Of a DNA stretch of 64,000 bases, positions 7,681-45,649 are shown piece after piece. The translations under genes and the position numbers were made by a program. Source of the DNA: Pseudanabaena sp. PCC 7367 (GTDB lineage: Bacteria > Cyanobacteriota > Cyanobacteriia > Pseudanabaenales > Pseudanabaenaceae); NCBI RefSeq assembly GCF_000317065.1, contig NC_019701.1, forward strand, positions 3,916,001-3,980,000. The letters run 5' to 3'. Each line of letters opens with the position of its first letter. Within the stretch, counting starts at the first letter, position 1. The notes under the pieces are model-generated. The model had not been told where the DNA came from. It saw only the letters and a list, made by a program, of their open reading frames with translations, and did not search any database.

Positions 7681-8745
7681 ATGGCAAGCTTTAGGAATGT
7701 TTTAGAAGATCTGGTGGTTCGGGAAGCAAAGTTACGGGTTAGTCACTTGCGTCATGAAGCTATTCCCAAACTGAATGTAGGCGAAGTAATTGCCTACTCC
7801 CTGAATCGATTGCCACCGATGTATGCCACTACTCAGCAGGGTTGCCTGAGGCTAAGAGCCCGGATTCGCAATGAGATCGGCTATCAGATTTCGGAAACAG
7901 TACGCCGTGCCATTTCTGCGGTTCAGGTAGGAGATCCGCTTCATGATCCTAATCCTTTACCGGAAACCGAACTAGTAGGTAGCGCCACAGCGTTGGCCAA
8001 ATTGCAAAAAATCCTGGGCGATCCCCACATGCACTGGAGTAAAGTGCCAGAGTCAGTGGCTTGGGCGATTTCCAAGGCTGGTTCGGTGTCGATGGAAAGT
8101 TTTAATGCCCTCAGTCACAATCGCCGCAGTAATGTTGCCAGCATTAAAGAATATTTGCGCCGATCGCGGGAGCGCCGTGCCCTGATTGCCTCAAATTCTT
8201 TGGGTGGGAATTCCGATGATGATAATACCCTGGGGCATGAAAATAGTGCTACGATCGCCCACTGTGAGTTTGAATTATATATGTCTAGAGCCTATCTGGG
8301 CTATTGTAATGTGCTGGAACGGTTGGTTCTAACTCTGGCTGAGCTTCAAATTAGCCGCCTTGCCCCAGAAATCCGCGATCGGATTGATGCCGCCGAGGTC
8401 ACCGCCTTTACCTTGAACCGCTTGCCACCTATGTATGCCACCAGTAGCCGTGGTCTACAACAGCTCCACCAAAGAGTTAAAGCCGAATTTGCTAGCAGCA
8501 TCAATCGCACTTTGTACCATGCAATCACCGTGATAGTAGATTCACCCCATCGATTTACTACGCCATTGCCCTATGACAAATTTGACCAAGAGCAATCTGA
8601 AGCGATCGATCAATTAAAACTAATTCTCAATCGCCCCGATCTCAATCCTAAAAATATTGCCCATGTGGTTGAAGAAGTTCTGGACCAAAAGGTCAGCGAT
8701 AGCCTGGGGCGCGCTTCCAGCTATATCATGTTGAATAGTGGTTGA
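7681..8745 (+). CDS. Tandem ComFB-domain protein
   Basis: The protein carries two ComFB domains. The first covers residues 1-85 (FRNVLEDLVVREAKLRV, then LNRLPPMYATTQQG at 41-54) and the second about 205-285 (YCNVLERLVLTLAELQI, then LNRLPPMYATSSRG at 245-258). Between them are about 110 residues with a basic RRSRERR segment and an acidic, Ser/Asn-rich turn; a similar segment follows the second domain. The first domain begins directly at ATG 7681 without the N-terminal helix of the single-domain homologue at 5177. The two halves share an LKLIL/LQKIL segment after each domain, so the whole gene looks like an internal duplication. ComFB dimers bind cyclic dinucleotides; a covalent pair would bring two sites together. 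A 267-base gap separates it from cobT. Confidence 0.85.
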   Translation: MASFRNVLEDLVVREAKLRVSHLRHEAIPKLNVGEVIAYSLNRLPPMYATTQQGCLRLRARIRNEIGYQISETVRRAISAVQVGDPLHDPNPLPETELVGSATALAKLQKILGDPHMHWSKVPESVAWAISKAGSVSMESFNALSHNRRSNVASIKEYLRRSRERRALIASNSLGGNSDDDNTLGHENSATIAHCEFELYMSRAYLGYCNVLERLVLTLAELQISRLAPEIRDRIDAAEVTAFTLNRLPPMYATSSRGLQQLHQRVKAEFASSINRTLYHAITVIVDSPHRFTTPLPYDKFDQEQSEAIDQLKLILNRPDLNPKNIAHVVEEVLDQKVSDSLGRASSYIMLNSG

Positions 8746-9021
8746 ATTCAGTTGATTTTGGTAGTCAGAAGAACTAGATTGGCTCTGGTATGGGCGTAAG
8801 TTTTTGGCAAAGGCCATTTAAGCCAAGCTTGGGCTTTAAGGCTGGCATCCTTAAGATGTGCAAGACTACCATCGCTAGATGAGCATTTATGATCAAATTA
8901 AGTCTAGCGTAAGTCTAACGACTGCGATCGCCATATTTTAAGATTGTCTTTATTAAGTTGGCTTTTAGCTTGTAACATTACTATGTATGTAAGTAGTTCT
9001 AAACGCTAAAGTCAAAAAATT

Positions 9022-10212
9022 ATGACGCGATCTATTGAGACAATTGCCGCTCATGGTGGTCAGTTAATTAATCGCATTGCTGCCGATCGGCAAAAACAAG
9101 ATTTCCTTGCCCAGGCCGATCGCTTACCCAGGGTGCAACTATCTGAACGATCGCTCTCGGATTTAGAACTAATTGCGATCGGTGGCTTTAGCCCGCTGAC
9201 CGGATTTATGAACCAGGCTGACTATATCGGCGTGGTTGAGAACATGCGCCTGGCCAATGGTTTACCCTGGTCGATCCCGGTGACGCTACCTGTCGCTGAG
9301 GCGATCGCTAACCAACTGGAATTAGACAGCCTGGTACGGCTTGATGATCCCAATGGGGAATTTATTGGCGTACTGGAGCTAAGCCAAAAATATACCTATG
9401 ACAAGGTGCATGAAGCCTTGCATGTTTATCGCACCAATGAAGACAAGCATCCTGGCGTAAAGGTGATTTATGATCAAGGTGAGGTAAACCTGGCTGGTGA
9501 TGTATGGCTGTTGGAGCGCCGCCCCCATCCCCAATTTCCTACCTATCAAATCGATCCGGCAGAATCCCGCCAATTGTTTCAAGAAAAAGGCTGGCGGACT
9601 GTGGTGGGTTTCCAGACTCGCAACCCGATCCACCGCGCCCATGAATATATTCAAAAGTCGGCACTGGAAATTGTCGATGGTTTGTTCCTGCATCCACTAG
9701 TTGGCGCTACCAAAAAGGATGATATTCCCGCAGATGTGCGGATGCGTTGCTATGAAATCATCCTGGAGAAATATTACCCCCACGATCGCGTGATTCTGGC
9801 GATCAATCCTTCGGCGATGCGCTATGCTGGCCCCCGCGAGGCAATTTTCCATGCCCTGCTGCGGAAAAATTATGGCTGCACTCACTTCATTGTGGGTCGT
9901 GATCATGCTGGGGTGGGTGATTATTATGGCACCTATGACGCACAACATATTTTTGGGGAATTTGAACCCGGTGAATTGGGCATCACGCCATTGATGTTTG
10001 AACATGCTTTCTATTGCAAGCGTACTGGTGGCATGGCCACAGCCAAGACCAGCCCCAGTTTGCCAGAGGAACGCATTCACCTGTCGGGTACGAAGGTACG
10101 CGAGATGCTACGCCGAGGTGAGTTGCCACCACCACAGTTTTCGCGCCCAGAGGTGGCCTCTGAATTAGCCAGAGCCATGCAGGCGATCGCCCAATCTGAA
10201 TCGAATGCTTGA
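9022..10212 (+). CDS. sat: Sulfate adenylyltransferase (ATP sulfurylase)
   Basis: ATP sulfurylase makes adenosine 5'-phosphosulfate from ATP and sulfate, the first step of sulfate assimilation. The 396-residue length is typical of the single-polypeptide bacterial enzyme. The nucleotide-binding [11 protein letters not shown] is at residues 198-208 and GRDHAGVG at 292-299; [10 protein letters not shown] near residue 54 and [17 protein letters not shown] near the C-terminus are also diagnostic. No APS kinase domain is fused. Start is ATG 9022. The gene stands alone. Confidence 0.97.
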
Positions 10213-40760: not shown

Positions 40761-42764
<2,004 letters not shown>

Positions 42765-42784
42765 GATTGTTCTAAATATTTTCG

Positions 42785-43915
42785 GTGGTACAACTTGAGC
42801 CCATCAATGGCAATGCTCAAAAGCTAATGGAAACACCAGATAAAAATGCCCAATTAAGCCGAGTGGTGCTAAAAGGATTTAAGTCGATCGCTGAATGCGA
42901 TATTGAACTTAAGCCTCTCAATGTGCTGATCGGTTGCAATGGTGCTGGTAAATCTAACTTCATTAGCTTTTTCAAGATGATTCAGCAATTGCTGGACAAG
43001 AATTTACAACGCTTTGTGGGTCAGGAAGGTGGGCCTGATTCAATTTTACATTTCGGTCGCAAAACAACCGAGATTCTTGAGGTAGGCCTATATTTTGGAA
43101 TGCGTCAATACAAAGCTGCATTCATGCCGACCAAAGATAATCGTTTAATGATTGGAGAAGAAATACTTATAGCATTTGATAATCTGGCTGGCAGCAGCAA
43201 AGGTAAATTTGAGACGGTTATGGGGCAGACGAAAGGAACCGCTGATTATTATGTACTGTCTGGCATGAAGGGCTGGTGGATTTTTCACTTCCACGACACC
43301 AGTGACAGCGCAACAGTTAAACAACTACACCCAATCAACGACAATATTTATTTACGTCCCGATGCCAGCAATCTGGCCGCGTTTCTTTATTTACTAAAAG
43401 AGCAGTATCGAGATAACTACGATCGCATCGTTAAAACAATTCGCCTGGTTGCCCCTTTCTTTGGCGATTTCATCCTGCGGCCATCACCCCTTAACCAGGA
43501 TAATATTCAACTGGAATGGCAAGAACTAGGCCAGGATATCCCTTTTAAAGCCCACCATTTGTCTGATGGTACGTTGCGGTTCATTTGCCTTGCCACGTTG
43601 TTGCTGCAACCAAAATCCTTACAGCCAGAAACCATCTTGATCGATGAGCCAGAATTGGGACTACATCCCTATGCAATTAACGTCCTGGCATCATTGATCA
43701 GGTTGGCATCGTTGGAAAAGCAGCTAATTGTTTCTACTCAATCGATCGAGCTTTTGAATAATTTTGAGCCAGAAGATGTGATCGTAGTCGATCGTGACCA
43801 GGGCAAATCAACTCTAAACCGTCTTTCTAGTTCAAAACTTCAGGAGTGGTTAGATGAATACACCTTGGGTGAGCTATGGCAAAAGAACCTGTTCGGGGGT
43901 ACACCTGCCAGATGA
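42785..43915 (+). CDS. AAA ATPase (AAA_21/OLD-RecF-like), partner of DUF4276 protein
   Basis: A 376-residue ABC-class ATPase of the OLD/RecF type. VVLKGFKSIAECDIELKPLNVLIGCNGAGKSN gives Walker A at 50-57; the signature-like HHLSDGTLRF is at 257-266; Walker B ILIDEPELGLHP is at 284-295; the H-loop region is IVSTQS (315-320). There is no long coiled coil. The next gene starts within its stop codon. Such ATPases paired with a TOPRIM-like protein occur in anti-phage systems such as PARIS and OLD; this exact pairing is an inference. Start is GTG 42785 or, equally possible, ATG 42827. No full HIP1 octamer is seen, unlike flanking genes. Confidence 0.85.
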   Translation: MVQLEPINGNAQKLMETPDKNAQLSRVVLKGFKSIAECDIELKPLNVLIGCNGAGKSNFISFFKMIQQLLDKNLQRFVGQEGGPDSILHFGRKTTEILEVGLYFGMRQYKAAFMPTKDNRLMIGEEILIAFDNLAGSSKGKFETVMGQTKGTADYYVLSGMKGWWIFHFHDTSDSATVKQLHPINDNIYLRPDASNLAAFLYLLKEQYRDNYDRIVKTIRLVAPFFGDFILRPSPLNQDNIQLEWQELGQDIPFKAHHLSDGTLRFICLATLLLQPKSLQPETILIDEPELGLHPYAINVLASLIRLASLEKQLIVSTQSIELLNNFEPEDVIVVDRDQGKSTLNRLSSSKLQEWLDEYTLGELWQKNLFGGTPAR

Positions 43916-44556
43916 GCAATGTTTACATACTTGTTGAGGGGCAGACTGAGTTCATATTTATTAGTGAATTCCTGAGCGAGTTCTTTCGGGGAAAAAGTAT
44001 ATATCTGTTTCCCATCGTGACTAGAACTAGTAAGACGGCAAAGGGCGGTATAGTCATATATTCTCAGGTAAAGCCTCAATTAGAACAACTATGCAAAGAA
44101 CACCCGAATGAATTTGTCACAACAATGATTGATTTATATGGGTTGCCCAATGATTTTCCTGGTAAGGATTCCTTGCCAAATATTACTGATCCATACCAAA
44201 AGGTTGAGTATCTTGAACAAAGTTTGGCGAGCGATCTAAATTGTCCAAACTTTTACCCTAATATTATGCTGCATGAGTTTGAAACTCTACTTTTCAGCGA
44301 TCCTAAGGCTTTCAGGAGTTGGTTTAATGATGAAGTGGTCAATCGCATAGAAGTTATTAGCCGCAACTTTGAAACTCCTGAGCATATTAACGATGGTGTA
44401 ACTACTGCGCCTTCAAAGAGAATCATCCAATGCTGCAAAGGCTATGACAAGATTCTGCATGGCTCAACAATATCCCTGGATATTGGTTTAGATACTATTC
44501 GTAACAAATGTAGGCATTTTGACGACTGGCTCAATAAACTGATGACATTGGTTTAG
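43912..44556 (+). CDS. DUF4276 family protein, TOPRIM-like
   Basis: A 214-residue protein. Its N-terminus VYILVEGQTEFIFISEFL carries the VEGxTE glutamate motif (residues 8-13) of TOPRIM-type nucleases; FVTTMIDLYGLPNDFPG includes Asp74, a candidate for the second acidic motif; NIMLHEFETLLFSDP is characteristic of DUF4276. The start ATG 43912 overlaps the ATPase stop (ATGA), indicating translational coupling; an in-frame ATG at 43876 is less likely. Nuclease activity is inferred from the fold resemblance only. AT-rich, HIP1-free DNA suggests recent acquisition with the ATPase. Confidence 0.82.
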   Translation: MSNVYILVEGQTEFIFISEFLSEFFRGKSIYLFPIVTRTSKTAKGGIVIYSQVKPQLEQLCKEHPNEFVTTMIDLYGLPNDFPGKDSLPNITDPYQKVEYLEQSLASDLNCPNFYPNIMLHEFETLLFSDPKAFRSWFNDEVVNRIEVISRNFETPEHINDGVTTAPSKRIIQCCKGYDKILHGSTISLDIGLDTIRNKCRHFDDWLNKLMTLV

Positions 44557-44725
44557 CCACCAATTCGCAGCAGAAAATTTTTTTAGGGCAGGTAAATCGC
44601 CTATGATCCAGGTATTAGACTTCTTGCCTAAATGCTAAATCTGAGGCTGAGAGATTAATCTCTCTGGAATATGAGGCGTTTGCAAGAGATCTATTGTCGA
44701 TCGTATCGATGGGGACTTTTATCCT

Positions 44726-45649
44726 ATGAGAGTAGTTATTACTGGCGCTACTGGTTTTATTGGCACCAGACTGGTGGAAAAATTACATGGGCGGGGCGAT
44801 CGCCTCACGCTGCTGGTGCGCGACCCAGACAAAGCCCAGCAGCAATTCCCAGCGGATGTTTTTACCAACCTGGCGATCGTGGCCTATACCCCGCTGCAAC
44901 TGGGCGAATGGACTAATGTATTTGGCGATTGTGATGGCGTGGTCAATTTAGCTGGAGCACCGATTTTTGGCCAACGCTGGAGCGATAAGGTAAAAAAAGC
45001 GATTCTGGAAAGTCGGCAAATTGGCACCAGACGAATTATTGAAGCGATCAAAACCAATCAACATAAACCGACAGTATTAGTTAATGGCTCGGCGATCGGT
45101 TTCTATGGCACCGATCCAGACAAAGAATTTGATGAATATAGCTTTTCTGGTGATGATTTTCTGGCCGAGGTTTGTAAAGCCTGGGAGGCAGAAGCAGATG
45201 TGGCCAGCGAACTGGGCTTGCGGGTGGTCAAGCTACGCACTGGCATTGTGATGGGGAATGGCGGCGCTTTAGCAAAACTGCTGCCTATTTTTCAGCTTGG
45301 GGCTGGTGGCAAGATTGGTAATGGCAAGCAATGGTTTTCCTGGATTCACCGCGACGATCTGGTCGATTTAATTATGCTAGCGCTGGACAATACCCAAATT
45401 ACTGGATCGCTAAATGGTACTGCCCCCAATCCAGTCACTAATGCTGAATTTACCAAAACCCTGGCCAAGGCCGTTGCCAAACCGGCGCTTTTACCAGTGC
45501 CAGCGATCGCCCTGCAAGTAATCCTGGGTGAGGCATCGATTTTAGTATTAGAAGGGCAAAAGGTTTTACCCAAGAAAGCGCTGCACAATAAGTTTTCTTT
45601 TACCTATCCTGAATTGGAGCCAGCTTTAATGGAGATTGTAGGCAAATAG
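44726..45649 (+). CDS. TIGR01777-type SDR epimerase
   Basis: An extended short-chain dehydrogenase-like protein of 307 residues. The NAD(P)-binding GATGFIGTRLVEKL is at residues 7-20; GVVNLAGAPIFGQRW, NGSAIGFYGTDPD, GGKIGNGKQWFSWIHRDDLVDLI and NGTAPNPVTNAEFTKTL are hallmarks of the TIGR01777 group (YfcH; SulA homologue in plants and cyanobacteria). A role in cell division or chloroplast division was proposed for some members, but the substrate is unknown. Start ATG 44726. Confidence 0.92.
   Translation: MRVVITGATGFIGTRLVEKLHGRGDRLTLLVRDPDKAQQQFPADVFTNLAIVAYTPLQLGEWTNVFGDCDGVVNLAGAPIFGQRWSDKVKKAILESRQIGTRRIIEAIKTNQHKPTVLVNGSAIGFYGTDPDKEFDEYSFSGDDFLAEVCKAWEAEADVASELGLRVVKLRTGIVMGNGGALAKLLPIFQLGAGGKIGNGKQWFSWIHRDDLVDLIMLALDNTQITGSLNGTAPNPVTNAEFTKTLAKAVAKPALLPVPAIALQVILGEASILVLEGQKVLPKKALHNKFSFTYPELEPALMEIVGK

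Follow-up and report, generated by a model that had tools for sequence, protein, structure and literature searches.

The locus raises the question of whether two overlapping genes between uvrB and an SDR gene (flanking names as assigned in the initial annotation) of the cyanobacterium Pseudanabaena sp. PCC 7367 form a defence system against phages and, if so, to which kind of system they belong. The initial annotation had proposed a stand-alone immunity module in which an ATPase is coupled to a TOPRIM-like effector. The window analyzed here is a stretch of 64,000 nucleotides, in which both reading frames and their overlap were confirmed:

42827..43915, + strand: gene A (HEC-01A), an OLD/SMC-type ABC ATPase of 362 aa, with an alternative GTG start at 42785
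43912..44556, + strand: gene B (HEC-01B), a DUF4276 protein of 214 aa, predicted to be an OLD-type TOPRIM nuclease
43912..43915, + strand: the ATGA overlap coupling A to B, read from the sequence

The annotated GTG start of gene A at 42785 is possible; the ATG at 42827 has more support, since the alignment of two Nostoc plasmid homologues begins at that residue. The gap between uvrB and gene A is 62 bp (20 bp with the GTG start), and transcription of the pair may therefore start from the upstream gene. A scan of positions 42500-44800 for promoters and terminators gave counts that did not exceed those of shuffled sequences and was uninformative. The G+C content is 43% in gene A, 39% in gene B, and 47% in the window. 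The absence of HIP1 (GCGATCGC) from the pair, which had been pointed out initially, is real (0 copies in the pair, 79 in the window) but not unusual: 123 out of 1245 windows of the same size are likewise free of HIP1, and the absence, being weak evidence for this reason, was dropped as a sign of foreign origin.

Gene A matches AAA_21 in Pfam (7.3e-29) and carries the motifs of an ABC-type ATPase:

42929..42958, + strand: Walker A, IGCNGAGKSN, residues 35-44 of A, read from the sequence
43562..43570, + strand: core of the ABC signature, SDG, residues 246-248 of A, invariant in a 50-row alignment
43631..43654, + strand: Walker B, TILIDEPE, residues 269-276 of A, with D273-E276 invariant in the 50-row alignment

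Within the Walker A motif, G36, N38, G39, G41, K42, and S43 are invariant in the same alignment. The predicted structure (pLDDT 92.2) finds its best matches among SMC/Rad50 heads (Z about 20) and the retron/Septu PtuA ATPases (Z about 18), and a profile of A compared with the PDB matches OLD, GajA, PtuA, and AriA chains (AriA at about 2.5e-6). No nuclease domain was found in A by profile scans with Pfam and PADLOC-DB. Judged by motifs and model, gene A is predicted to be an ATPase of the Walker/ABC type whose head resembles those of SMC, Rad50, and PtuA. At one homologous locus (L100, 9792-15005, - strand) a 1738-aa protein, possibly a fused sensor, ends in HEC-01A, has a TCAD9 domain close to its N-terminus, and adjoins a DUF4276 gene.

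Gene B matches DUF4276 (PF14103) in Pfam at 1.8e-60, and its model (pLDDT 92.3, pTM 0.87) is a beta-alpha sandwich followed by helices. The sole two Foldseek matches of the model below 1e-3 are OLD C-terminal regions. In a second structural alignment the top 13 rows (Z 9.1 to 6.9) all belong to OLD, AriB, retron Eco8, or GajA, and they are followed by an unrelated designed Rossmann fold (Z 6.6). These structural scores (Z 7-9) are modest, yet the agreement of the model is specific to the OLD-type TOPRIM. Sequence searches of the PDB with B alone or a B profile returned chance matches only, and profile comparisons of DUF4276 with OLD (E 1.1e-4, Prob 57, C-terminal part only) and with RloB (E 0.003, Prob 10, 23 columns) were weak. 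A search of a viral fold library with B gave nothing below 1e-3 (the best match, E 0.02, was a RloB-like protein), and the phage records contained no B match.

Conservation was counted over 53 aligned sequences. The residues E9, G10, E13, D74, Y76, E122, E124, and K180 are invariant (53/53) and H121 is kept in 50; the VEGxTE motif and the HEFE segment noted initially are present as VEGQTE (residues 8-13) and HEFE (residues 121-124). The putative active site comprises:

43936..43950, + strand: EGQTE motif of B (E9, E13), invariant in 53/53
44131..44139, + strand: DLY (D74-L75-Y76), at the site of the TOPRIM DxD and the end of the third strand, D74 and Y76 each in 53/53
44272..44283, + strand: HEFE (H121-E124), proposed metal-B ligands, E122/E124 fitting T506/E508 of BpOLD (T506-x-E508) by spacing alone
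44449..44451, + strand: K180, proposed catalytic lysine, in 53/53, compared with K562 of BpOLD by spacing alone

The structural alignments pair residue 1 of the B model with residue 392 of BpOLD and 18 of AriB, and residue 2 with residue 372 of GajA. These starting points therefore place E9 on BpOLD E400, AriB E26, and GajA E379, and E13 on BpOLD E404, in a register taken from the ends of the aligned ranges and not from a residue-level superposition. E400 of BpOLD (PMC6755086), E26 of AriB (PMC12409363), and E379 of GajA (PMC10781630) are reported as catalytic glutamates. In the inferred register E9 supplies the invariant glutamate of the first TOPRIM strand (53/53), and by spacing D74 fits D455 of BpOLD. 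The TOPRIM DxD is not present in B, the second aspartate being Tyr76 (DxY in 53/53); this is a real departure from the family definition, and B is a relative with a TOPRIM fold, not a canonical member. Overall, the fold predicted for gene B is that of an OLD-type TOPRIM, including its beta/alpha core, with an invariant acidic cluster and lysine, in agreement with the ATPase and TOPRIM-like class first suggested. In one homologue (L070, 9228-10508) DUF4276 is interrupted near residue 179 by an inserted reverse-strand reading frame of 426 aa that has no Pfam match.

The pair was compared with the models of PADLOC-DB 2.0.0. Gene A matches HEC-01A (PDLC04175) at 4.5e-148 over residues 8-360 of 362, and gene B matches HEC-01B (PDLC04188) at 2.2e-81 over residues 1-213 of 214. 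The same two protein families occur in the same order, adjacent on one strand, and the pair is a stand-alone member of the catalogued candidate defence system HEC-01, which the initial annotation had not named. HEC stands for Hma-embedded candidate, a name from a 2024 preprint; a later paper that cites it reports that several HECs, HEC-06 included, have antiviral activity (PMC12988326). The window's copy lies outside Hma or any other defence operon. In the literature covered by our searches, which did not extend to bioRxiv, the one paper on defence genes that names HEC-01 lists it without further detail and no mechanism for it was found; no mention of "DUF4276" was found either.

The initial assignment to the broad class of PARIS, OLD, and Gabija holds as kinship but not as membership: the pair is related to PARIS, AbiL, OLD, and Gabija and is a member of none. 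PARIS (AriA/AriB) likewise consists of two genes, an ATPase and a TOPRIM effector, and B matches AriB structurally (Z 8.2), but AriB belongs to another sequence family and the window's B has DxY where DxD is expected. Neither an AriB model nor DUF4435, which we take to be the family of AriB, is among the Pfam and PADLOC matches of B up to E 1. AbiL and RloA-RloB also join an ATPase to a TOPRIM-like partner with EGxxTE, and in sister species they are found at a chromosomal site that HEC-01 also occupies. The window's B is nevertheless DUF4276 and not RloB, which keeps DxD in the aligned set, and no RloB or AbiLii match to B was found up to E 1 in Pfam or PADLOC. The OLD nucleases and GajA of Gabija share the ABC ATPase and the TOPRIM and are the best structural matches of B; they are single polypeptides, in contrast to the two reading frames of the window's pair, beside which no GajB-type partner was identified. 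The MAD3 ATPase model of MADS matches A (1.2e-27), but at 97.2 bits against a curated cut-off of 420, and no MADS operon was recognized around the pair.

The two outcomes that the initial annotation had named as refuting its proposal were checked, and neither was obtained: DUF4276 is predicted to have a TOPRIM core, as described above, and the pair is neither core nor syntenic. DUF4276 occurs in 80 out of 386 genomes of the phylum (0 out of 14 controls), close relatives of B are present in 22 out of 58 relatives, and the placement between uvrB and the SDR gene, judged by coordinates, recurs in no other genome of the family. A partnership with uvrB was considered and rejected: by coordinates, the pair adjoins uvrB in none of the other genomes searched. 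A total of 37 loci were picked from the best DUF4276 matches, and more distant DUF4276 pairs are therefore under-represented among them. Upstream of B, A is matched over at least residues 12-360 in 36 of these loci (adjacent in 35, about 1.1 kb apart in L078) and is recognizable over residues 6-94 only in the 37th. The distance matrices of A and B correlate with r = 0.90 over 50 pairs, a value reached in 0 out of 2000 permutations. In the tree of A, the window's copy is separate from those of its own family and clusters with six Nostoc-type copies that belong to a different family in the class (99/96); copies on plasmids of Piscirickettsia and of Aeromonas adjoin this clade. By these comparisons, A and B, which overlap, travel together and are horizontally exchanged. 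Between two genomes of the sister genus (G017 and G019; four genomes compared), dS is 0.23 in B, 0.83 in A, and 0.5 to 1.0 in the flanks, which suggests a recent exchange of the effector alone.

Broken copies among the 37 loci (B disrupted in four, A in two, an insertion between A and B in one) are what would be expected if the pair were a decaying mobile passenger without present function. The window's copy is, however, intact in every proposed catalytic residue, and the four intact copies at one site of the sister genus (site 1) have dN/dS values well below 1 (0.05-0.19 for A and 0.12-0.25 for B; flanking release factor 0.01-0.02 and GNAT 0.01-0.05 in the same genomes), and the passenger explanation is highly improbable. 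A preferential loss of the effector was also considered and dropped, the numbers of disrupted B and A copies being too few.

In the sister genus the pair occupies two fixed chromosomal sites. Site 1 is flanked by a GNAT gene and a release-factor gene, the latter present in 26 out of 26 genomes, of which 25 were assigned. The site is filled in ten (seven by direct reading, two by coordinates alone, one as a B remnant at a contig end), and empty with GNAT adjacent in nine; in six, the stretch contains neither GNAT nor the pair. Most of the empty loci show by eye a hairpin past the GNAT stop codon; in filled loci the pair replaces the hairpin, A starts about 10 bases after the GNAT stop, and no target duplication is visible.

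Site 2 follows an M16 peptidase gene (25 out of 26 genomes), and 22 of its 25 loci were classified: ten contain HEC-01, seven an AbiL/RloAB pair, three a HEAT-repeat gene, and one a PIN-type gene pair alone, and one is empty. The AbiL/RloAB assignment was scored on one of the seven (L146; RloB 1.2e-35, AbiLi 1.8e-90); in one of the seven pairs RloB is split, and one pair is truncated by its contig end. One slot therefore takes alternative small modules, including another ATPase-TOPRIM pair. The PIN-type gene is also carried by four of the ten HEC-01 copies at this site. Where it stands alone with its small partner (L144, 5091-5635, - strand), the left junction is typical of HEC-01-filled sites and the pair was likely deleted. 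The HEAT-repeat protein, of 627 aa, sits in the HEC-01/AbiL slot in L147 (2392-4272) and L152 and matches HEAT proteins of defence models (HEAT-ARM_XIII, 2.2e-41).

Both sites are surrounded by housekeeping genes and are retained from species to species, in contrast to islands with fast turnover. This stability could be read as a sign of a housekeeping role in DNA repair or the cell cycle, for which the OLD family offers a reported non-immune precedent in the archaeal protein Cran1 (PMC12796447). Housekeeping neighbours at the window's locus and at both sites, uvrB directly upstream of the pair, and the purifying selection are in keeping with such a role; the patchy presence among relatives, the empty or replaced sites, the tolerance of broken copies, and the uniqueness of the uvrB adjacency to the window's genome among those searched argue against it. 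A housekeeping function is accordingly quite improbable.

The surroundings of homologues outside the cyanobacteria point to immunity. On the Colwellia contig, the one of four named genome contigs whose neighbours were scanned, PglX precedes and PglZ follows the pair, with BrxC further upstream (BrxC-PglX-[AB]-PglZ). This arrangement is a BREX operon and provides the strongest indication of an immune role. On Aeromonas veronii plasmid pHX3 it lies exactly between a type III methyltransferase and a type III restriction enzyme gene (mod-[AB]-res). Both homologues are carried inside another defence operon; the window's copy is not. Methyltransferase and helicase genes surround the pair in four of the eight plasmid records read (out of 12 that bear B), in three lineages. 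Among the cyanobacterial copies, one on a Nostoc plasmid has a divergently oriented AIPR gene (2e-46) next to it (L096, 6862-8061).

An enrichment in defence islands, the survey proposed with the initial annotation, was not visible in cyanobacteria, where the copies lie mostly outside islands. The PADLOC models were compared, at 1e-15, with 188 neighbour proteins of 24 loci (out of 38, same-place copies within a genus being reduced to representatives) and with 120 neighbour proteins from 20 control loci. Among the 25 families listed per set there was no clear excess, with scattered matches in both sets and family counts that are at least the numbers obtained.

The same surroundings bear on a toxin-antitoxin or addiction module, in which A would neutralize B and which would persist mainly as a selfish element, phage defence being incidental or absent. 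The type IV toxin-antitoxin label of Pfam AAA_21, the plasmid-borne copies (one adjoining vapBC), and the PIN-type gene at site 2 fit this explanation. The typical antitoxin is far smaller than the ATPase of gene A, and a pair set between core genes of a BREX or a type III restriction operon is in a defence context, which makes the addiction module improbable, even though AAA/TOPRIM_OLD pairs are reported to act as toxin-antitoxin pairs in another study (PMC10440598).

The best explanation, with a probability of about 0.72, is that the two genes make up a stand-alone immune module of the split-OLD type, a candidate HEC-01 system. This reading, in line with the immunity module originally proposed, is supported by the homologues that lie within BREX or type III restriction operons and by the exchange with AbiL/RloAB at one site, from which an antiviral activity is inferred.

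In PARIS, AriA is reported to sense and AriB to cut tRNA (PMC12409363). By analogy, A would most likely sense infection and control B as a metal-dependent nuclease. ATP-bound A would oligomerize and keep B inactive until a signal from the phage releases or switches it; this signal might be an anti-restriction protein or the impairment of restriction or BREX. B, probably a dimer, would then cleave nucleic acid by means of E9, E13, D74, E122, and E124, two metal ions, and K180. The substrate would be either host tRNA as for AriB or DNA as for OLD and GajA, and this cutting would stop the infected cell (abortive infection, as in PARIS or AbiL). The embedding in restriction and BREX operons suggests that the pair guards those systems; solo copies would need another trigger or would guard unlinked systems.

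A more far-reaching version of the immune reading is tentative and, on balance, unlikely. DUF4276 would represent a separate class of TOPRIM nuclease with two metals and DxY, and would have originated as a guard of restriction and BREX systems that is triggered when phage anti-restriction proteins or DNA mimics disable these systems. In cyanobacteria the system would be solo, just downstream of housekeeping genes, maybe promoterless, and its effector would be exchanged separately from the sensor with AbiL or other modules at fixed sites.

The predicted fold, the few predicted catalytic residues, the embedded copies, and the site at which HEC-01 and AbiL are swapped open HEC-01 to testing with a small set of mutants. 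Should the system work, DUF4276 would be a third partner of stand-alone OLD-type ATPases, beside DUF4435 (AriB) and RloB, and stable sites outside islands would be places to seek defence genes missed by island surveys.

The same genome contains a second, divergent ATPase and DUF4276 pair on a 329-kb contig (L102, G000:C1:164500-183500, at 7910-9094 and 9058-9675). It matches HEC-01-type models at 4.3e-203 and 3e-61, with the PADLOC A and B labels swapped, and its neighbours are haem-binding, Rieske, and glycosyltransferase genes. A RloB gene (7.9e-52) is also present (L176, G000:C2:2039846-2040382), which may mean that the genome carries an AbiL-type pair too.
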